Below are positions 9,411-48,541 of a stretch of DNA of 64,000 nucleotides, one piece after another (within the stretch, counting starts at the first letter, position 1; the number at the start of each line of letters is the position of its first letter). Origin of the DNA: Candidatus Fermentibacter danicus (GTDB lineage Bacteria; Fermentibacterota; Fermentibacteria; Fermentibacterales; Fermentibacteraceae). The stretch spans positions 1 to 64,000 of the forward strand of contig LKHC01000110.1 of the NCBI GenBank assembly GCA_001618605.1. Reading direction: 5' to 3'. A program made the translations under genes and the position numbers. The notes below the pieces were generated by a model. It was not told the DNA's origin and searched no databases. It was given only the letters and a program-made list of their open reading frames with translations.

Positions 9411-9866
9411 TCAGTCCTTCTGCTCTCTGGATTCCTTCAGAGGGCTCCTGGTCTCCCTGCGGTCCTTCTTCTCCTTCCTGGATTCCTTCTCGGAGGGCTT
9501 GAAGGCCACCGGGGAGTCCACGAACTCGATTATCACGGCTTCGCCGGCGTCGCCTGCACGCGGCCCGAGCTTCATGAGCCTGGTATAGCCGCCGGGCCTC
9601 TGCGCGTACCTGGGGCCGAGTTCGTTGAACACCTTCCTGACGGCTTCCGCCCCGTAGACGTGACGGGCCACCATGCGTCTCGCGTGGACGGTATCCGTCC
9701 TGCCCCTTGTGACGATCTTCTCCACCATGCTGCGGGCGGCGCGGGCCTTGGCCTCGCTCGTTACGACCCTTTCATGGATGATGACGGAAGTGACGAGGTT
9801 CCTGAGGAGTTTTACCCTCTCCTCCGGCTTCCTTCCCAGCTTGGGCGTAGTCTTCCTGTGTCGCAT
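9411..9866 (-). CDS. rplQ: Large ribosomal subunit protein bL17
   Basis: Component of the 50S subunit near the exit tunnel. The N-terminus MRHRKTTPKLGRKPEER is the typical L17 start, and the core ends with RPGGYTRLMKLGPRAGDAGE. At 151 residues it is longer than the E. coli protein (127) owing to a highly charged Lys/Glu/Arg tail of about 35 residues. AGGAGAC precedes the ATG, and it follows rpoA by 13 bases as in the conserved alpha operon. Confidence 0.97.
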   Translation of the reverse strand: MRHRKTTPKLGRKPEERVKLLRNLVTSVIIHERVVTSEAKARAARSMVEKIVTRGRTDTVHARRMVARHVYGAEAVRKVFNELGPRYAQRPGGYTRLMKLGPRAGDAGEAVIIEFVDSPVAFKPSEKESRKEKKDRRETRSPLKESREQKD

Positions 9867-9879
9867 AGGTCTCCTAGTT

Positions 9880-10830
9880 TCATCTTTCCGAAAGCCCGAG
9901 GTCGTACTGCGCCAGCAGCTCCTCGAGTATCTTGAGGGAGGCCGGGCCGAGGTTCTTCACGGAGAGAAGCTCGGCCCTGGTCTTCGATGAGAGCCGGCCG
10001 AGCGTGTCTATCCCGGCGGTTGCGAGTATCGCCGCCAGGCGCGGAGCGATGGCGGTCTCGCCGAGGGGGAGGTTCGAATAATTCTCCTCGCCGCCGTCAT
10101 CCTCTTCCGATTCCGACCCGGAGGCGACGGACCTGCCGCCGAGGATCATCTCGAAGTGCTTCAGGAGTATGTCGCAGGCGGAGTCCATCGCTTCCCGGGG
10201 ACCGATGGTCCCGTCCGTCTGGATCTCCATAGAGAGCTTGTCGTAGTCGGTCCGGTCGCCGACACGCGCGCTCTCCACCTCGAAGTTCACCTTCCGCACG
10301 GGACCGAACCAGGAATCGAGCAGGATGTCGCCGATCTCCTTGCCGCGGCCCAGATCGTGCCAGTCCTCGGCGGTGACGTATCCCTTGCCGCGCTCCACGA
10401 TGAGTTCGATGTGGAGCCTGGAGCCCTGCCCGACCTCCGCGACGGGGAGGTCTCCGTTCAGGATGTGCAGGAAGGAGTCGCCCTTGAAGTCGGACGCCTT
10501 TGCGCTCGCGGGCCCCTTCATGTCCAGAACGAGCTTGCCCGGCCCGGTTCCGTCGTGCCTTATGTCGAGGGACTTGATGTTCAGGACGATGTCGGGCACG
10601 TCCTGATAGACGCCGGGGAGCGGGGTGAACTCGTGGCTGGCCCCGGTGATCCTCGCCACCACGGGCGCGGCACCCTCCAGCGATGAAAGGAGCACTCGCC
10701 TCAGGGCGGTGCCAAGGGTACGGCCGAAACCGCGTTCGAGAGGGGTTACGACGATCCTGCCGTACGTGTCGGTCAGGCTGTCCTCGTCCCACTCGATGCG
10801 ATCCGGAAGATGAAGGCTCCTGTACTCCAT
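9880..10830 (-). CDS. rpoA: DNA-directed RNA polymerase subunit alpha
   Basis: Assembles RNA polymerase and contacts activators and UP elements. The 316 residues comprise the N-terminal dimerisation domain (about 1-230, with GFGRTLGTALRRVLLSS) and the C-terminal DNA-binding domain (about 250-310, with TLGRLSSKTRAELLSVKNLG). An acidic linker rich in Glu and Asp joins them. A run of G residues before the ATG serves as ribosome site. In most bacteria rpsD lies directly upstream; here the neighbour is rpsK, 79 bases away. Confidence 0.98.
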   Translation of the reverse strand: MEYRSLHLPDRIEWDEDSLTDTYGRIVVTPLERGFGRTLGTALRRVLLSSLEGAAPVVARITGASHEFTPLPGVYQDVPDIVLNIKSLDIRHDGTGPGKLVLDMKGPASAKASDFKGDSFLHILNGDLPVAEVGQGSRLHIELIVERGKGYVTAEDWHDLGRGKEIGDILLDSWFGPVRKVNFEVESARVGDRTDYDKLSMEIQTDGTIGPREAMDSACDILLKHFEMILGGRSVASGSESEEDDGGEENYSNLPLGETAIAPRLAAILATAGIDTLGRLSSKTRAELLSVKNLGPASLKILEELLAQYDLGLSER

Positions 10831-40945: not shown

Positions 40946-41767
40946 ATGAAGAATTGGAAAACATTTGCGGCGTTCGCCGCCTGCCTCGTCTCCGCGTGCG
41001 GCGGCAGGACCCTGAGGCAGGAACTGGAAATGGTCCCCTCGACCGCGCTGGCCCACATACACGTCGAATCCACCCTTCCGGCCGAACTGTGGGCCCTGCT
41101 CCCGGAGGAGGCCCTTCCGGTCGATGCGGCAATGTTGCGGGAGATGATCGATCGCGGCCCGCTCGGCATAACCGTCTCGGGAATCAGCCTGACCGACTTC
41201 GAGCCCCAGCTCCTGCTGCTGTCCCGCGACATGCCCCCCGATACGATGCTCGCAATAGCGACCAGATATTTCCAGTTTTCCATCGACAGCACCGCCGGGC
41301 GTTCGGACCTGACCTCACCAGCGGGAGCCATACTGGGCTCCCTGGCCTCGCGGGACGGCTGGACCTGCCTCTACCTCGGCCCCTCCCCCCGGTCCGTCAT
41401 GACCGCCTGGCTCGGACTCGACCGATCCCGCAGCCTCGGCGCCGACAGCTCGCTCGCGAGGATCTCCGGTCCGGGGGGTGACATCTCCCTGTTCATTCCG
41501 CCCGGCATGATCTCGTTCCTCAGGGTCGCCCCGATCGAGAACTGGGTCGACGGCTGGGAGAGCGTGGAGAGCGCCATGTCGCTCGTCCAGCCTACCGCGG
41601 CGAGGCTCGACGCCTCCTTCGACTCGTTCGTGAGCCTGGAGGCCCGGCTCGTCCGCCATGACGGCAAGGTTTCCCGTGTCCGCGTCGAGGTCGAGGACTC
41701 GGGATTCACCCCGGAGGAGATGCTTTCTTCCCTGAAGCTGCTCCTGATGGCCGGAGGGATGCTCTGA
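40946..41767 (+). CDS. Lipoprotein of unknown function, first gene of an ABC exporter operon
   Basis: The 273-residue product starts with a classical lipoprotein signal ending VSAC, lipid-attachment Cys18. The ATG at 40946 has AAAGGCGG upstream; an in-frame ATG 17 codons earlier lacks a signal context. The mature part has no motif I recognise. It shares one base with the ATPase start (CTCTGATGG), so it is coupled to the ABC genes and probably acts with that transporter at the cell envelope. Function is inferred only from this context. Confidence 0.75.
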   Translation: MKNWKTFAAFAACLVSACGGRTLRQELEMVPSTALAHIHVESTLPAELWALLPEEALPVDAAMLREMIDRGPLGITVSGISLTDFEPQLLLLSRDMPPDTMLAIATRYFQFSIDSTAGRSDLTSPAGAILGSLASRDGWTCLYLGPSPRSVMTAWLGLDRSRSLGADSSLARISGPGGDISLFIPPGMISFLRVAPIENWVDGWESVESAMSLVQPTAARLDASFDSFVSLEARLVRHDGKVSRVRVEVEDSGFTPEEMLSSLKLLLMAGGML

Positions 41768-42450
41768 TGGACACGATCCTCAGGGCCGAGGGGATCGGGA
41801 GGTCGTTCGGGGATCTGCGCGTCCTGGACGGGCTCGACCTCACGATGGACCAGGGCGAGTTCATCGGGATCGTAGGCAGAAGCGGCACGGGCAAGAGCAC
41901 CCTTCTCGGGATTCTCGGCACCCACGATCTCGAATACGAGGGCAGGCTCGAACTCGGCGGAAGGGACGTCAAGGCCGAGGATTCCGCCGGGCTCGCCTCT
42001 CTGAGACGCGACTTCCTCGGATACGTCTTCCAGGACTTCCATCTCCTGCCCGAACTCACCGCGGTCGAAAACGCCATACTGCCCGCGGTGTTCTCCGGAA
42101 GGGACGCAGAATCCGCCCGGAACAGCGCGATCGACGTCATGTCGCACCTCGGCGTCAGGATGGACGGAACTCCGACAGCCATGCTCTCGCGGGGGGAGCG
42201 CCAGCGTGTGGCGGTGGCCAGAGGCCTCGTGAACAGGCCGCGCCTCCTGCTGGCGGACGAGCCCAGCGCCAGCCTGGACGACGAAAACGAAAACATCCTG
42301 TTCGACATGCTGGACGACCTGAGAAAAAGGCAGGGTTTCGCCATGATCGCGGTGGTCCATTCTCTTTCCGTCCTTTCGAGGGTGGACAGGGTCATGGAGC
42401 TGTCCGAAGGACGCCTCCACCCGGTCCGGAAACCGGGAGGCGCGGTGTGA
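41767..42450 (+). CDS. ABC transporter ATP-binding protein (LolD/MacB-type)
   Basis: ATPase of 227 residues that would power the permease encoded next. Walker A is GRSGTGKST (37-45), the signature is LSRGERQRVAVARGL, and Walker B is RLLLADEPSASLD. The Q-loop reads GYVFQDFHLL. The sequence fits the LolD/MacB/FtsE group, which works with FtsX-like permeases on lipoproteins, peptides or cell-wall enzymes rather than importing nutrients. The signature has SRGE instead of SGGQ/E, a mild change. GTGA overlap with the permease gene. Confidence 0.92.
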   Translation: MDTILRAEGIGRSFGDLRVLDGLDLTMDQGEFIGIVGRSGTGKSTLLGILGTHDLEYEGRLELGGRDVKAEDSAGLASLRRDFLGYVFQDFHLLPELTAVENAILPAVFSGRDAESARNSAIDVMSHLGVRMDGTPTAMLSRGERQRVAVARGLVNRPRLLLADEPSASLDDENENILFDMLDDLRKRQGFAMIAVVHSLSVLSRVDRVMELSEGRLHPVRKPGGAV

Positions 42451-43736
42451 AGACGAAGGATACGTCCTACGCGATAAGGCTGTGGAACCGCGGACACTGG
42501 CGCGATTACCTCTTCAGCCAGCTCATGCTCGTCACGGCGGCCCTGTTCCTCGTTTTCTTCATCTCCATCGGCCTCGGGGTGCAGAAGGTGCTGGACAGGT
42601 TCATGTCGCGCGACATCCCCGCCGAGCAGGTGAGGGTGACGCCCCCGGGAATACAGGCCGGATTCTTCCTGAGCGAGCAGGGCGGGCTCGAGATCACGGA
42701 AGCCCTCAGGGACTCCATCGTGAACCTGCCCGAAGTCTCCAGGATCGACCCGCAGATCTACGCACACGTGCCGGCCTACCTCCAGGGGCTCCTCGGCGGA
42801 CAGCCCTACTACACGGACATCACGCTCGAGGGAGTGACCGGCGAGTTCCTCGGGGATTCGATACTCGAGGATGTCGACTGGTCCTACGACGCGGCCGACA
42901 GCGCGACGAAATACCTTCCGATCGTACTCAGCGAAAACCTGCTGCTCCTGTACAACGCCGGTTTCGCCGAAGCGAACGACCTAGTGGGGCTGAGCCCCGA
43001 AGGAGTGGTCGGGCTCGAATGCAGGGTCACGGTCGGAAGCAGCTCCATCGCCAGATCGTCGCACAGGCCGGTGACCGTCAGGGCGCGGATCGTCGCCACC
43101 TCCAACAACCTGGCTCTTTTCGCCCTGGCCGTGCCGATCGAGTTCGTGGACGGGATGAACACCCTCTTTCTCCCGGACAGGCAGAGGAGCTACAGCGCTC
43201 TCATGGTCACCGCGGAACGCGCCGAGGACGTCCCGGAGATAGTCAGGATCGTGGAGGGCCTGGGGCTCCGCGCGGAGACCAGGAGAGGCATAGCGCAGAA
43301 GGCCGAGATGCTGGTCGCCATAGTTACCACCGCCCTCTCCGCCCTGGCCCTGGCGATCCTGGTGTCGGCCGTCACCAGCGCCGTACACACCCTGGTCGCC
43401 GACATCCGGAGCAGGAAGTTCGCGATAGGCGTCCTCGTCGCTCTCGGCACGCCCCGGGAGAAGCTCGCGGCCGTCTTCTCCTTCCAGATACTCTTCATGT
43501 CGGCGTTGTCATTGATCACGGGGGGGCTTCTCGGGGCGCTCGTCTCGTGGGGGGTGAGCGAGGCCCTGCTGTCGCTCTCCACCGTGCTCTCGACGGCCCT
43601 CGACTCGCTGGCCGTGTTCCCGGCGGGCTGGATGGCGGCGGGACTTGTGATCGTACTGGCCGTCTCCACGGGGCTCTCTTACGTGACCTTCAGGAGGCTG
43701 CTGAACCAGCCGGTGGCCGATCTGCTGAGGCGCTAG
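42447..43736 (+). CDS. ABC transporter permease, FtsX/LolC/MacB-like
   Basis: Inner-membrane protein of 429 residues with one N-terminal membrane helix (about 24-45), a large periplasmic domain (about 46-285), and three C-terminal helices (about 290-420). The cytoplasmic loop DIRSRKFAIGVLVALGTPRE is the FtsX-family signature. The GTG start overlaps the ATPase stop by four bases and has GGGAGG six bases upstream. Together with the ATPase and lipoprotein it looks like a mechanotransmission-type exporter; LolCDE-like or MacB-like roles are both possible. Confidence 0.88.
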   Translation: MKTKDTSYAIRLWNRGHWRDYLFSQLMLVTAALFLVFFISIGLGVQKVLDRFMSRDIPAEQVRVTPPGIQAGFFLSEQGGLEITEALRDSIVNLPEVSRIDPQIYAHVPAYLQGLLGGQPYYTDITLEGVTGEFLGDSILEDVDWSYDAADSATKYLPIVLSENLLLLYNAGFAEANDLVGLSPEGVVGLECRVTVGSSSIARSSHRPVTVRARIVATSNNLALFALAVPIEFVDGMNTLFLPDRQRSYSALMVTAERAEDVPEIVRIVEGLGLRAETRRGIAQKAEMLVAIVTTALSALALAILVSAVTSAVHTLVADIRSRKFAIGVLVALGTPREKLAAVFSFQILFMSALSLITGGLLGALVSWGVSEALLSLSTVLSTALDSLAVFPAGWMAAGLVIVLAVSTGLSYVTFRRLLNQPVADLLRR

Positions 43737-43746
43737 GCGGACGGGA

Positions 43747-46545
43747 TCAGAACAGGGACAGGTTGATCCTGGAATAGATCTCCGAGTCCAGCTTCTCCCA
43801 GCTCGAGAAGAACGGGCGGTTCGTGTAGTCGAGGCTGCAGCCCAGCGAGAGGCTCAGCCTGTCCATGGCGTCGAAGGAGATCTCCGCGTTGCCGAAGGCA
43901 TAGTAGCCTTCAGTGTCGTCCGGCGGCAGGTAGAGGTCTGCTCCCAGCCACAGCGAGGGCAGGAGGGAATCGTCCCTGTCCATCCAGAGGCCCATCGACA
44001 TGTAGGCCGTCCAGTCGTCGGTCCTCTTTTCGGCGATGAACCACTGGCTCGTGACCATGCCGAGGCCCGCCTCGGGGGAGACATAGAGCCAGTCGGTGAT
44101 CCATTCCCTGTATCCGAAGGCGGTGTAGGAACTCACCTGCCACGGCCGGACCGTTGCGGGCTGGCGGTCCCAGTTGGCGTGCGCCTTGACGTAGAGTTCA
44201 TCCGTCAGGAAATAGTCGATCCCGACCGAGGCCCACGCGGTGTTCTCCCTCTCCTTGGTGTAGATCCTCTCGATGTTTCCCCGGAACTCGACGTCCAGGC
44301 TGCTCCCGCCGGGACCGTAGAGCCAGGAGGCTTCCGCTCCCCCCCGGTATCTGCTTCTCTCCCTGTTGCCTCTCTCGAAGGACAGGTCAGCCCAGATGGA
44401 GGCCGAGAACCTGCGGGACTTGGACCTCCAGTAGCCCACGTCGTAGGAGGGATCGGAGATGTACCTGATCCTGTCCTCGGCGTAGGCATAGCCCGGGGAG
44501 ATCCGCAGGGCCTCCAGATAGTAGTCCAGCGCGCCGTCCGGATCGCCCATACGCTCCCGGATCAGGCCCAGGTAGCAGATCGAGAAGACAGCCGAGGGGG
44601 CGATCTCCAGGGAGCGCTCGAGCCATCTCTTCGCTTCGTCGTATCTGTTCTGGAAGAGGAACGCCTCGCCCAGACCGCTGGCGGCTTCATACGAGGTGCT
44701 GTCCAGGGAGTAGGCCGTGGCGAGTACCTCCGCGGCCTCTGGATACCTCTCCGCGGTGCTGAGAATGATGCCGCGCGCCCTCCAGACGGCGGGATCGTCC
44801 GGGAATCTGGTGGTTGCGGCCTCGCAGAGGCTGTCCGCGAGATCGTGCCTGGACGAGTACGAGAGGAGATCGCAGATGGAGACGAGCCCGACCGGATCGT
44901 CCGGCGCGAGGGAGGCGGCGAGCAGACCGGCTCGTACCGCCTCTTCCTCCATCCGGTTGTAGAGATAGCTCCAGGCCAGTACGGAAGCGGCATCCGGATC
45001 GGCTTCCAGGGCCAGCCGTTCGAGGCTGTCCGCCGCAGCCGCGTCCCCGGCCGCCCTCCTGATCGAGGCGATCTCCATCAGGGTCATGCCCTCCTCGCCG
45101 GAAACCGACATGTAGCGCATCAGAAGGGATTCGGCCTCCGCGGCATTCCCCCGGCGGGACTCGATCCGCGCCAGCCTCTGGAGTCCGAAGGAATAGAGGC
45201 TGTCCTCCTCGATGGATCTCCTGAAGAAGACGGCGGCGGAATCGGTCTTTCCGGCTTCCTCGAGCAGCATCCCGAGTTCGCCGAGCAGCCAGGGGCTCTG
45301 CCGGGCGGACATGGCGGCCAGCCCGTACCAGGCGATGGCCTCGTCCGTTCTACTTTCCTCTTCGTAGAGGAGCCCTCTCTGCTCCCAACCCCACCGGTAG
45401 GACGAATCGGCCTCGATCGAGGCCTCGTATGCGGAAGCGGCCTCGTCGCGCATCCCAAGCTCATGGTAGACATACCCCAGCTCGCCCCAGATCCATGCGT
45501 TCGAAGGATCGATCTCCAGAGCTCTCCTGTAGTTCCGCGCGGCCTCCTCCAGGCGGCCGGCGTCCTCATCGAGGAGCCCCAGGCTGACCCACGCCTCGCC
45601 GATGGACGGATCGATCTCCAGTGCTGTGCGGAACCAGGTCCGGGCGGAATCCGGGCGACCCTCGTCCTGGACCAGGAGCCCGAGCCTGTAGGCGGCCCAG
45701 GCGTAGTCGGGGTCGATCTCCAGCCCGGCCAGATACCAGTCCCGCGCGAGCTCCGTGCTGCCGACCGCTTCGAAGCACCAGCCCAGTTCCCCGTAGGCCC
45801 ACGAGTACCCCGGATCGGCCTCTACGAGCCGCCTGTAGCATTTTACTGCCGCTCCGAAGGCGCCCCTCTCCTCCTCGATCAGCCCGAGCCTCCTCAGCGC
45901 CTCCACGCTGGTGGAATCGTCCCCGATCATCCTCCTGTAGACGGACGCGGCGGAATCGGCCATCCCCGACGATTCCAGCAGCGAGCCCAGCAGGAGGGAC
46001 ATGTCGTCGTCCTCCGGGAAGCTTCGCGAGAATGCGGCGGCCCGGTCCAGCGCGGCGGCTGAGTCGCCCGAGAGGTGGAGTGCGCTCACGAGAGGCATGC
46101 AGGCGGGGCGGTAGAATCCGTTCAGATCGATTATCGAAGCCAGCAGCCCCGCGGCTGCGGCGTAGTCCCCCCCGGCCATGCGTATGCCAGCCAGCCCCTC
46201 CAGCGCCGGGATACAGTCCCCGTCGAGATCGAGCGCCTTCGTCAGGACGGCCTCGGCCGTATCGGGATCGGTCTCTCCCAGGACGACGCCCATCGAAGCC
46301 CAGGCGAGTGGGGAAAGCGAATCCATTCCGACAGCCGTCCGGGACCACCCGAGGGCGTCGGAATCGATCCCGCCCCGGACGGCGGCGATGGCGGCCCCGG
46401 CCCAGGCGTCGGAATCGGTGGAATCGGCCTCGACAGCCAGGCAGGCCAGGGCGTATGCGCCCTGCCAGTCGCCGTTAGAGCAGGCCTCCATCCACCCGGA
46501 CGGCGGGAGCGCGGTCGATGCAGCGAGGAGTAGAGCGTTCAGCAA
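43747..46545 (-). CDS. Large TPR protein with a C-terminal outer-membrane beta-barrel-like domain
   Basis: 932 residues. The start is a TTG at 46545 with GGAGG six bases upstream, giving a short signal peptide (LLNALLLAASTALP). Residues about 20-700 are tandem tetratricopeptide repeats, recognisable from recurring patterns such as DPSNAWIWGELGYVYHELGM and DPDYAWAAYRLGLLVQDEGR. Residues about 710-932 alternate polar and aromatic residues, end in Phe, and resemble DUF481 (YdiY-type) outer-membrane barrels. A periplasmic TPR array tethered to the outer membrane is inferred. The start overlaps the uppP stop by seven bases. The role is unknown; the neighbours uppP and aspartokinase hint at envelope or cell-wall metabolism. 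Confidence 0.75.
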   Translation of the reverse strand: MLNALLLAASTALPPSGWMEACSNGDWQGAYALACLAVEADSTDSDAWAGAAIAAVRGGIDSDALGWSRTAVGMDSLSPLAWASMGVVLGETDPDTAEAVLTKALDLDGDCIPALEGLAGIRMAGGDYAAAAGLLASIIDLNGFYRPACMPLVSALHLSGDSAAALDRAAAFSRSFPEDDDMSLLLGSLLESSGMADSAASVYRRMIGDDSTSVEALRRLGLIEEERGAFGAAVKCYRRLVEADPGYSWAYGELGWCFEAVGSTELARDWYLAGLEIDPDYAWAAYRLGLLVQDEGRPDSARTWFRTALEIDPSIGEAWVSLGLLDEDAGRLEEAARNYRRALEIDPSNAWIWGELGYVYHELGMRDEAASAYEASIEADSSYRWGWEQRGLLYEEESRTDEAIAWYGLAAMSARQSPWLLGELGMLLEEAGKTDSAAVFFRRSIEEDSLYSFGLQRLARIESRRGNAAEAESLLMRYMSVSGEEGMTLMEIASIRRAAGDAAAADSLERLALEADPDAASVLAWSYLYNRMEEEAVRAGLLAASLAPDDPVGLVSICDLLSYSSRHDLADSLCEAATTRFPDDPAVWRARGIILSTAERYPEAAEVLATAYSLDSTSYEAASGLGEAFLFQNRYDEAKRWLERSLEIAPSAVFSICYLGLIRERMGDPDGALDYYLEALRISPGYAYAEDRIRYISDPSYDVGYWRSKSRRFSASIWADLSFERGNRERSRYRGGAEASWLYGPGGSSLDVEFRGNIERIYTKERENTAWASVGIDYFLTDELYVKAHANWDRQPATVRPWQVSSYTAFGYREWITDWLYVSPEAGLGMVTSQWFIAEKRTDDWTAYMSMGLWMDRDDSLLPSLWLGADLYLPPDDTEGYYAFGNAEISFDAMDRLSLSLGCSLDYTNRPFFSSWEKLDSEIYSRINLSLF

Positions 46546-47342
46546 CCGGAGCCTCCGCAGAGGATGACCGCCGCCGACACGATCGAGGCGGCGATGCAGT
46601 ATACCCCGAAGACCCAGAGCCTGTTCCGGCCCAGGATGCCTATCAGCAGACGCAGAGAGAGATAGCCGACGACCGCCGACACCGCGAAGCCGACGGCGGC
46701 CGGCGCCATGTCGCCCGGAGGTATGGAGGAGATGTCGCGGGCGGACAGCAGCCCGGCTCCGGCGATGGCGGGGATCGACATGAAGAAGGAGAACCTGGCC
46801 GATTCCTCCTGGGAGACGCCGGTGGCGGTTATGGCCGAGATCGTCGAGCCGGAGCGGGATATGCCCGGAAGGAGGGCGACAGCCTGTGCGAACCCGCCTG
46901 CCAGCGCTGAAAGCGGGCCGGGGGCGCGGCCGGCGCCGCCTCGGGGGCGGAGCAGCCCCGCGGAGAGCAGAACCAGGCCGTTCAGGCCCAGGAGCGCAGC
47001 TATGAGAAGAGGAGAGGAGAAGGCTTCCTCCACCCGGTCCCCCAGCAGGATGCCGCAGATGCCGGCCGGTATCGAGGCGACGAACAGCAGCAGAAGAAGC
47101 CGGACAGCCCCGTGCTCGAAGCGGAGGATTCCCCGCGCAAGGGCCGCCAGATCGCTGCGGTAGAAGAACAGCACCGAACAGAGCGTGCCCAGATGCAGCA
47201 CGACTTCGAGCAGCACCCCGTTTCCGGGCGAACGGGTTCCCATAAAATGGCCCAGGAGGGCCAGATGACCCGAACTGGAGATGGGCAGGAACTCGGCGAC
47301 CCCCTGGACCACCGCGAGGATCAGGACGGGGATGAGCTTCAT
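46539..47342 (-). CDS. uppP: Undecaprenyl-diphosphate phosphatase UppP (BacA family)
   Basis: Inner-membrane enzyme that recycles the lipid carrier of peptidoglycan and other surface polymers by removing a phosphate from undecaprenyl diphosphate. The 267 residues show the two family motifs, QGVAEFLPISSSGHL (14-28) with catalytic acidic and serine residues, and PGISRSGSTI. About eight membrane helices are predicted. The ATG overlaps the aspartokinase stop by four bases. Confidence 0.95.
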   Translation of the reverse strand: MKLIPVLILAVVQGVAEFLPISSSGHLALLGHFMGTRSPGNGVLLEVVLHLGTLCSVLFFYRSDLAALARGILRFEHGAVRLLLLLFVASIPAGICGILLGDRVEEAFSSPLLIAALLGLNGLVLLSAGLLRPRGGAGRAPGPLSALAGGFAQAVALLPGISRSGSTISAITATGVSQEESARFSFFMSIPAIAGAGLLSARDISSIPPGDMAPAAVGFAVSAVVGYLSLRLLIGILGRNRLWVFGVYCIAASIVSAAVILCGGSGC

Positions 47343-48541
47343 TCCTCCTGCTCCAGGAACTCGGCGTGCAGGGCGGCCAGGGCGCGGTCACGGTCGTCCC
47401 TGCCGACGAGGGCCGAGATCGTGGCATGCGAATCCGCTGTCTGGAGCATCTCTACGCCGGCTGCGTCAAGAGCGCCCGAGAAGCGGGCCATGACTCCGCG
47501 GAGCCCGTGCATGCCCGCGCCGACGATAGAGACCTTGGAACAGGGTCCGTTCAGCCGCACGGAGGCGAAGGCCCCCGACAGGATCGAGGCCGTCGATTCC
47601 GCGTCGGCCGCAGGGACGGTGAAGAGGACGGCGCCGCCCATGACGGAGAACATGTCCATCGATATGCCTGCCCGCGCGACCCTTCCGAACACGTCGGCAT
47701 GAAAGCGGCCGGCCCCGGTTCCCGGGAGTCCCTCCACGGCCACCTGGAAGACGTCCGGCCCGGATGCGACACCGGTGACGTACCTGCCCCCCCGGAGTAC
47801 GAAGGGTTCTATCCGGGTGACTCTTTCTCCCGAGGAATGGTTCCTTATGACCACGGGGACGCCGGCCTCCCCGGCGATCTCCGCCGCCCGCGGGTGTACC
47901 ACCCCGGCCCCCTGCCAGGACATCTGCCTCAGGTCTTCGGCGCTGATCCTCTCGATCCGGATGGCGGAGGGGATTATGGAGGGGTCGGCGGACCTTATCG
48001 CGTCGACGTTCTTGAAGAGCACCGCCTCGCAGGCGCCGAGGGCCGCGGCGAGAGCGAGGGCGGTGGTGTCCGATCCGCCCCTGCCCAGAGTCGTGGCGGC
48101 TCCATCCGGGCCGGCTCCCTGGAAGCCGGCCACCACCGGGATGCGGCCCACCTCGACGAGGGCTCTGATCCTGGAGGTGTCGATGCTTCTTATCTCCGCG
48201 TCCCCGGAAACTCCGTCCGTCGCGATACCCGCATCCCAGCCCGTCAGCGATTCCGCTTCCAGGCCGACCCGGCGGAGTTCTCCGGCCATGGCGGAGGCAG
48301 CGATGATCTCCCCGGCGCAGAGGAGCCTGTCGCGCTCGGCGGGAAGGGCTCCCGGAGCCATGTCGTAAAGAGTGTCGGTGGCGTAGGGATCGCCCCTCCT
48401 GCCCATGGCCGACACCACGACGACAAGGGAACAGCCCTCTCGGACGGCTTCGAGGCAGTATCCCGCCGCAGTGCCCCTGCCCGCGGCGTCCACTATGCAG
48501 GTACCCCCGAACTTGAACACGACGATCCGCCTGTCAGGCAC
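47339..48541 (-). CDS. Aspartate kinase
   Basis: First enzyme of the aspartate pathway to lysine/diaminopimelate, threonine and methionine. The 400 residues start with the kinase motif FKFGGTCI, include GRGGSDTTALALAAAL for substrate binding, and end with two ACT domains (about 255-400). The N-terminal motif usually reads KFGGTS; here Ser is Cys. GTG start with CCGGAGG six bases upstream and a good promoter at 48569. Cotranscription with uppP may link diaminopimelate supply to cell-wall synthesis. Which isozyme (lysC, thrA-like) cannot be told. Confidence 0.92.
   Translation of the reverse strand: MPDRRIVVFKFGGTCIVDAAGRGTAAGYCLEAVREGCSLVVVVSAMGRRGDPYATDTLYDMAPGALPAERDRLLCAGEIIAASAMAGELRRVGLEAESLTGWDAGIATDGVSGDAEIRSIDTSRIRALVEVGRIPVVAGFQGAGPDGAATTLGRGGSDTTALALAAALGACEAVLFKNVDAIRSADPSIIPSAIRIERISAEDLRQMSWQGAGVVHPRAAEIAGEAGVPVVIRNHSSGERVTRIEPFVLRGGRYVTGVASGPDVFQVAVEGLPGTGAGRFHADVFGRVARAGISMDMFSVMGGAVLFTVPAADAESTASILSGAFASVRLNGPCSKVSIVGAGMHGLRGVMARFSGALDAAGVEMLQTADSHATISALVGRDDRDRALAALHAEFLEQEE

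Follow-up and report, generated by a model that had tools for sequence, protein, structure and literature searches.

A conserved protein of the Fermentibacterales joining a TPR array to a DUF481-type domain: a candidate outer-membrane-anchored scaffold

The window (i.e., the whole stretch of 64,000 nucleotides from Candidatus Fermentibacter danicus that was analysed) contains the gene of a protein in which a long N-terminal array of TPR and helical repeats is followed by a DUF481-type domain, hereafter called the TPR-DUF481 protein. This domain make-up is conserved across the order (Fermentibacterales), together with a fixed spacing between landmarks of the chain and with synteny, and purifying selection is seen in two close pairs. 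The account of it to which we give somewhat better than even prospects is that of a periplasmic scaffold of fixed reach, anchored in the outer membrane and made of a single chain; its barrel fold, its orientation, its partner and its role in envelope assembly are presumed. No description of a TPR-DUF481 protein was found in the open-licence literature of PubMed Central.

Domain make-up and constraint

The initial annotation had taken 43747–46545 as one gene without stating its strand. The span is indeed a gene on the minus strand, where 932 codons are read without interruption from a TTG at 46545 to the stop at 43747–43749 (as shown in Table 1), while the plus-strand reading of the same span is interrupted by stops. 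The 627-aa plus-strand frame at 44179–46062 was rejected as a mechanical shadow of the minus-strand gene. As for the domains, many Pfam TPR families match the N-terminal part (best E 1.8e-47), and DUF481 (PF04338) matches residues 722–912 with E 5.3e-8 and 33.6 bits, or with E 2.6e-9 and 37.9 bits when the last 234 residues are scanned alone, so that the cut-off of 21.1 is exceeded in both cases. These scores bear out the annotated order, a TPR array and then a DUF481-type domain, and the protein does end in Phe (Phe932), as had been read from the sequence. In the source genome, the gene is the sole DUF481 match (E <= 0.01).

Table 1. Features of the TPR-DUF481 gene and its neighbours in the window.
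Feature	Position	Strand	Remarks and basis
TPR-DUF481 protein gene	43747..46545	minus	932 aa, TTG start, TGA stop; Pfam, relatives
GGAGG, ribosome-binding-like site	46552..46556	minus	6 nt before TTG; read from sequence
Hydrophobic leader, residues 1-17	46495..46545	minus	without Lys/Arg
TPR/helical-repeat array, residues 20-696	44458..46488	minus	Pfam TPR families, helical periodicity, helices in low-confidence model
C-terminal DUF481 barrel-like region, residues 700-932, last residue Phe	43750..44448	minus	Pfam, alignment, strand periodicity
DUF481 (PF04338) Pfam match	43810..44382	minus	Pfam scan
Conserved stretch WDRQPxTVRPWQ, residues 792-803	44137..44172	minus	aligned with WxRDxFxG of other DUF481 proteins
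uppP (BacA family)	46539..47342	minus	PF02673, E 1e-67; overlaps TPR-DUF481 gene by 7 nt
Aspartokinase	47339..48541	minus	AA_kinase and ACT domains; overlaps uppP by 4 nt
FtsX-like permease, convergent neighbour	42447..43736	plus	PF02687
ABC ATPase adjoining permease	41767..42450	plus	PF00005

The conserved Trp18 and the WDRQ motif stand 764–777 residues apart in 32/32 aligned members; this spacing varies by less than half a repeat, at identities to the window protein of 32–63% (down to 29% over all pairs). The 32 members leave out G003, G005, G031, G034, G037, G038 and G041, which are broken, partial or not fetched whole, and include G004, which is cut at its contig end. A rough internal contrast to this fixed length is given by the shorter tandem paralogues described below (439–607 aa). 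In addition, two close pairs are under purifying selection, with dN/dS of about 0.12 (0.008/0.067) and 0.14 (0.024/0.174), and the barrel of the first pair has a dN/dS of 0.02 (0.002/0.088).

Repeat arm, barrel-like domain and leader

The repeats were counted with a home-made profile, for which seven in-register repeats were the starting set and relatives served for re-training. In the window protein, it recognises 7 repeats (E < 0.01) or 9 (E < 1); for the 32 members, the corresponding ranges are 5–10 and 7–12. A single-sequence model of low confidence (pLDDT 42, pTM 0.29) has 41 helices between residues 15 and 696. Set against these 41 modelled helices, the 7–9 profile repeats imply that the remaining repeats are degenerate or of another helical kind. 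Therefore, the annotated figure of about twenty TPRs is plausible as a count of helix pairs in the low-confidence model, but only about half of them are recognisable TPRs by the profile. In the TPR part, none of 1000 column shuffles reached as high a helical moment, and 973 of 1000 reached as high a strand-like alternation. Conservation in blocks of 34 residues peaks in the arm at 341–408 and 613–714, and some parts of the barrel are equally among its maxima; within the seven clear repeats it is 0.75 at the structural TPR positions, 0.56 at the concave positions and 0.54 at the rest. Since the concave positions are conserved no more than the rest, a ligand groove is not evident.

In the barrel part, strand-like alternation was equalled by 7 of 1000 column shuffles and helix-like periodicity by 899. 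According to the available excerpt of PMC4827864, DUF481 (TCDB 1.B.75) is one of the putative outer-membrane pore families, its proteins having 12 predicted strands and a listed size of 277 +/- 41 aa; such strand predictions are described there as about fifty percent accurate for single proteins. The C-terminal domain is homologous to these DUF481 proteins over nearly its whole length; the 932-aa fusion differs from them in length as listed in that excerpt, which is a usual trait outside the domain definition. When profiles are aligned, the family and 14 other DUF481 domains run colinear through 204 columns with a probability of 98% (E 1.1e-13), and 33 of 40 family barrel sequences (33 main genes and 7 tandem paralogues) have a DUF481 match at E <= 0.1. 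The alignment of the 40 sequences contains 18 invariant columns, seven of which fall within WDRQPxTVRPWQ; the profile alignment sets this stretch opposite WxRDxFxG of the 14 other DUF481 proteins, and WDRQ or RPW is absent from all 17 other DUF481-type proteins fetched. If both chain ends are periplasmic, WDRQPxTVRPWQ would form the third outer loop, and the most length-variable places would be outer loops too.

The single-sequence model of the barrel is also of low confidence (pLDDT 45) and lists 14 short strands. Foldseek found nothing at E <= 0.001 with this model, so its top listing (OmpG, Occ channels, NalP and also beta-galactosidase) is not counted as evidence. A PDB search with the single sequence gave no match, and the eight matches of a PDB profile search, all at E 0.18 or more (antibodies and a prenyltransferase), were taken as chance. 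Omp85 genes are present in the source genome, and the search for LptD at E <= 0.01 found none, which is neutral for the scaffold reading. An Omp85-type domain lies in a 1121-aa frame of this genome (C81:18619-19239); no more than about 1.5 kb beyond it comes a TPR gene whose start resembles that of a lipoprotein (L106 1714-3033, i.e., C81 20.7–22.0 kb).

A hydrophobic stretch of 8–22 residues, counted from the chosen start, precedes the conserved Trp in the 32 members, and Lys and Arg are absent from it in 31 of them (a start at the second ATG of the exception would drop its Arg). The leader is thus without positive charge, and a clear cleavage site is not seen in it by eye. In two members (L071 of G010 and L080 of G024) the aligned start codon is ATA, with no in-frame ATG, GTG or TTG where one is expected; it is perhaps a rare start. 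In contrast, Lys or Arg stands close to the start of the lipoprotein encoded past the ABC genes in 19/20 loci (the other is cut; judged by eye, with starts partly uncertain). Of six stand-alone DUF481 proteins from the order, three start with MK or MR and a fourth has MK if read from an inner ATG; the other two carry Lys or Arg inside longer N-terminal parts. The leader, being hydrophobic but uncharged, is therefore export-like yet unusual, and export of the TPR-DUF481 protein is presumed mainly from its DUF481 homology.

An uncleaved leader would turn the protein into a one-chain bridge or ruler, held in or at the inner membrane near UppP and by its barrel in the outer membrane, with an arm that sets the intermembrane distance or connects the recycling of the lipid carrier with the outer membrane. 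An arm length held within 13 residues over 32 species would suit such a ruler, but the hydrophobic stretch of the leader is about 10–13 residues by eye, short for a true membrane helix, and we consider this arrangement highly unlikely.

Distribution and gene neighbourhood

Relatives occur in 39/42 searched genomes of the order, one of them a broken remnant (G005). A search of 60 genomes with the barrel part matched 39, all among the 42 members of the order (source genome included); the profile of the 40 sequences matched the same 39 among 385 genomes (E <= 0.001), with none of the other 346 (3 order members and 343 genomes outside the order) among the matches listed at this threshold. The order members without a match are G006 (80% complete), in which uppP lies at a contig edge, and G035 (66%) and G040 (61%), in which no uppP was found at E <= 1e-10. 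In G005 (98% complete, 1.9 Mb), the remnant, with two stops, lies between an intact uppP and the permease (L078, about 9548-10312), and uppP, aspartokinase and the ABC genes are retained despite the gene loss.

A DUF481 survey of 290 genomes gave matches in 72 at E <= 1e-5, including nine DUF481 frames of 628 aa or more, every one from this order. Since it caught only 7 main genes of the order (those of G000-G004, G008 and G018), the survey is insensitive, and divergent fusions elsewhere could escape it. Six TPR-region matches from other groups, found by scanning the genome contigs with the whole protein, were set aside, as none reaches the barrel, and 15 pattern matches on viral contigs included no relative.

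In genera g4 and g9, the main gene is followed by a shorter tandem paralogue (at L063-L071, L073-L077, L080 and L081), 439–607 aa long in the 8 of 12 inspected cases with a clear start; 7 of these 8 have no Lys or Arg before the first conserved Trp, by eye. A third type, found on other contigs in G020 (L092) and G025 (L093), has 638 and 627 aa; its N-terminal part is long and looks helical, and its end is distantly DUF481-like.

For the synteny, 36 loci were fetched, many of them short, and 33 contain the main gene. uppP lies upstream on the same strand in 33/33 and aspartokinase in 32/33 (the other contig ends), and downstream a convergent FtsX-like permease is found in 23/33 and the ATPase in 22/33, the rest being cut or without it; in the window, the permease ends ten bases past the TPR-DUF481 stop and is preceded by the ABC ATPase. 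Further neighbours seen are the lipoprotein (18), EF-Tu (11) and TldD (1) among the 33 loci, many of which are too short to tell. For loci outside genus g8, the spacing between uppP and the start ranges from -19 to +3 nt (21/21 measured). In g8, it is 439–463 nt in 8 of 10 measured loci, 220 nt in one and 55 nt in one, the last belonging to a gene whose start is doubtful. Among five g8 gaps inspected, three are filled by a frame of 129–148 aa, one has a frame of 79 aa and one has no frame of 70 aa or more. The small g8 gene between uppP and the TPR gene (L053 9287-9733, L054 7918-8307 and L061 8609-8998) resembles, by eye, a pyridoxamine-phosphate-oxidase-type protein.

The translational link to uppP and aspartokinase proposed by the initial annotation thus stands as operon-like synteny, but a tight linkage is not general, as the g8 gaps show. 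Coupling to UppP is unsupported, because G005, without the gene, still keeps uppP, aspartokinase and the ABC genes. The TPR-DUF481 protein may therefore have no role tied to uppP or aspartokinase and may be an outer-membrane protein kept in place by slow change of gene order, which is compatible with a scaffold and which we give a real, though less than even, chance. Neighbours without obvious relation (permease, lipoprotein and EF-Tu) are often kept as well, although many loci are cut, and the g8 gap, with its small gene in some, separates uppP from the TPR-DUF481 gene. On the other hand, uppP and aspartokinase are kept more tightly than any other neighbour tested, and outside g8 the start never leaves the narrow interval around the uppP stop in the measured loci.

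Known TPR-barrel systems and the proposed role

According to the available part of PMC9384988, BcsC, PelB and PgaA consist of an N-terminal TPR array and then an outer-membrane barrel, with 19 predicted TPRs in BcsC and PelB and 8 in PgaA, and with barrels of 16 strands in BcsC and PgaA; their TPR parts are described there as hubs or scaffolds. The TPR-DUF481 protein shares this order, and the earlier statement that no named family has it does not hold. It differs in other respects: the DUF481 barrel is predicted with 12 strands, as far as the excerpt of PMC4827864 goes, instead of the 16 of PgaA and BcsC; the NCBIfam models of BcsC (NF008520, 33.6 bits, cut-off 858) and PgaA (TIGR03939, 36.1 bits, cut-off 366.65) stay far under their cut-offs; and the synthase gene found in the operons of the BcsC/PgaA/PelB class was not found among the scanned neighbours here.

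These systems suggest a glycan exporter, in which the barrel would be the exit pore and the TPR arm would guide the polymer, as in BcsC, PgaA and PelB. Besides the domain order, two glycosyltransferase genes and a nucleotide-sugar dehydrogenase gene lie in the window at 48–58 kb, and 5/8 genomes searched have an OPX gene (Wza-type, PF02563) on the contig of the TPR-DUF481 gene, about 10–37 kb off. However, a polysaccharide synthase is absent among the window neighbours scanned, of which the co-directional ones are uppP and aspartokinase, and the strand number and the lack of any exporter-barrel match in Pfam also speak against export. In G007, the genes between OPX and the TPR-DUF481 locus look unrelated by eye. 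The idea of OPX as a partner is weakened by the distance and by G005, where an OPX gene persists 10 kb away from what is left of the TPR-DUF481 gene. An exporter is therefore regarded as unlikely. Farther along the contig of the window, at 80.8–89.2 kb (L111 846-9150), lies a likely surface-polysaccharide cluster with an OPX match, in which dTDP-sugar genes and a chain-length-type protein are also recognised by eye; at 68.4–72.2 kb (L079 4391-8155), a 1255-aa frame contains a Peptidase_C25 (gingipain-type) domain (E 3e-59).

Slam is likewise a TPR part plus a barrel, and the protein might, in a Slam-like way, help to assemble either surface lipoproteins or proteins of the outer membrane, acting with the convergent ABC/FtsX (Lol-like) genes. 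This agrees with the presence of these genes at most of the 33 loci and with a weak match to TPR_Slam (PF24575). The match, at 25.1 bits, is below the cut-off of 35.2, no Slam barrel match was obtained in the 40 barrel sequences (Pfam, E <= 0.1), and the ABC genes lie on the opposite strand, several kb away in some genomes, and persist in G005, which makes a Slam-like factor distinctly improbable, more so than an exporter.

A TPR fusion to a barrel of the PomS/T family, listed with 12 strands, is recorded in the available part of PMC4827864 (TCDB 1.B.72.2.4, 1086 aa, alpha-Proteobacteria), where the mentions of DUF481 and of TPRs concern different proteins. The TPR-DUF481 protein resembles it in its long, TPR-containing N-terminal part and its putative outer-membrane domain at the C-terminus, and its barrel belongs to another family of that list, set apart by the listing and not by sequence. 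In summary, the design of a TPR array followed by a barrel is already known, and what is unusual here is the barrel type, the missing adjacent synthase gene and the short, uncharged leader.

Under the favoured scaffold reading, the leader would send the chain across the inner membrane, and the C-terminal DUF481 domain would fold via BamA into a small outer-membrane barrel, perhaps of 12 strands. About 20 helix pairs, largely TPRs, would then project into the periplasm and form an arm whose reach is fixed. This arm may dock a glycan or envelope proteins (one or several), like the TPR arms of BcsC, PelB and PgaA. The uncharged leader, the limited accuracy of the predicted strand number, the poor models, the lack of an evident groove and the absence of an intact gene from G005 count against such a scaffold.

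DUF481 is widespread (72/290 genomes) and uncharacterised, and this order offers a handle on the role of its barrel, since DUF481 here probably anchors a long periplasmic arm of conserved length in the membrane. Should the arm prove to be a scaffold of fixed length with a tie to undecaprenyl recycling, the recycling of cell-wall precursors would be connected with the outer membrane in a new way.
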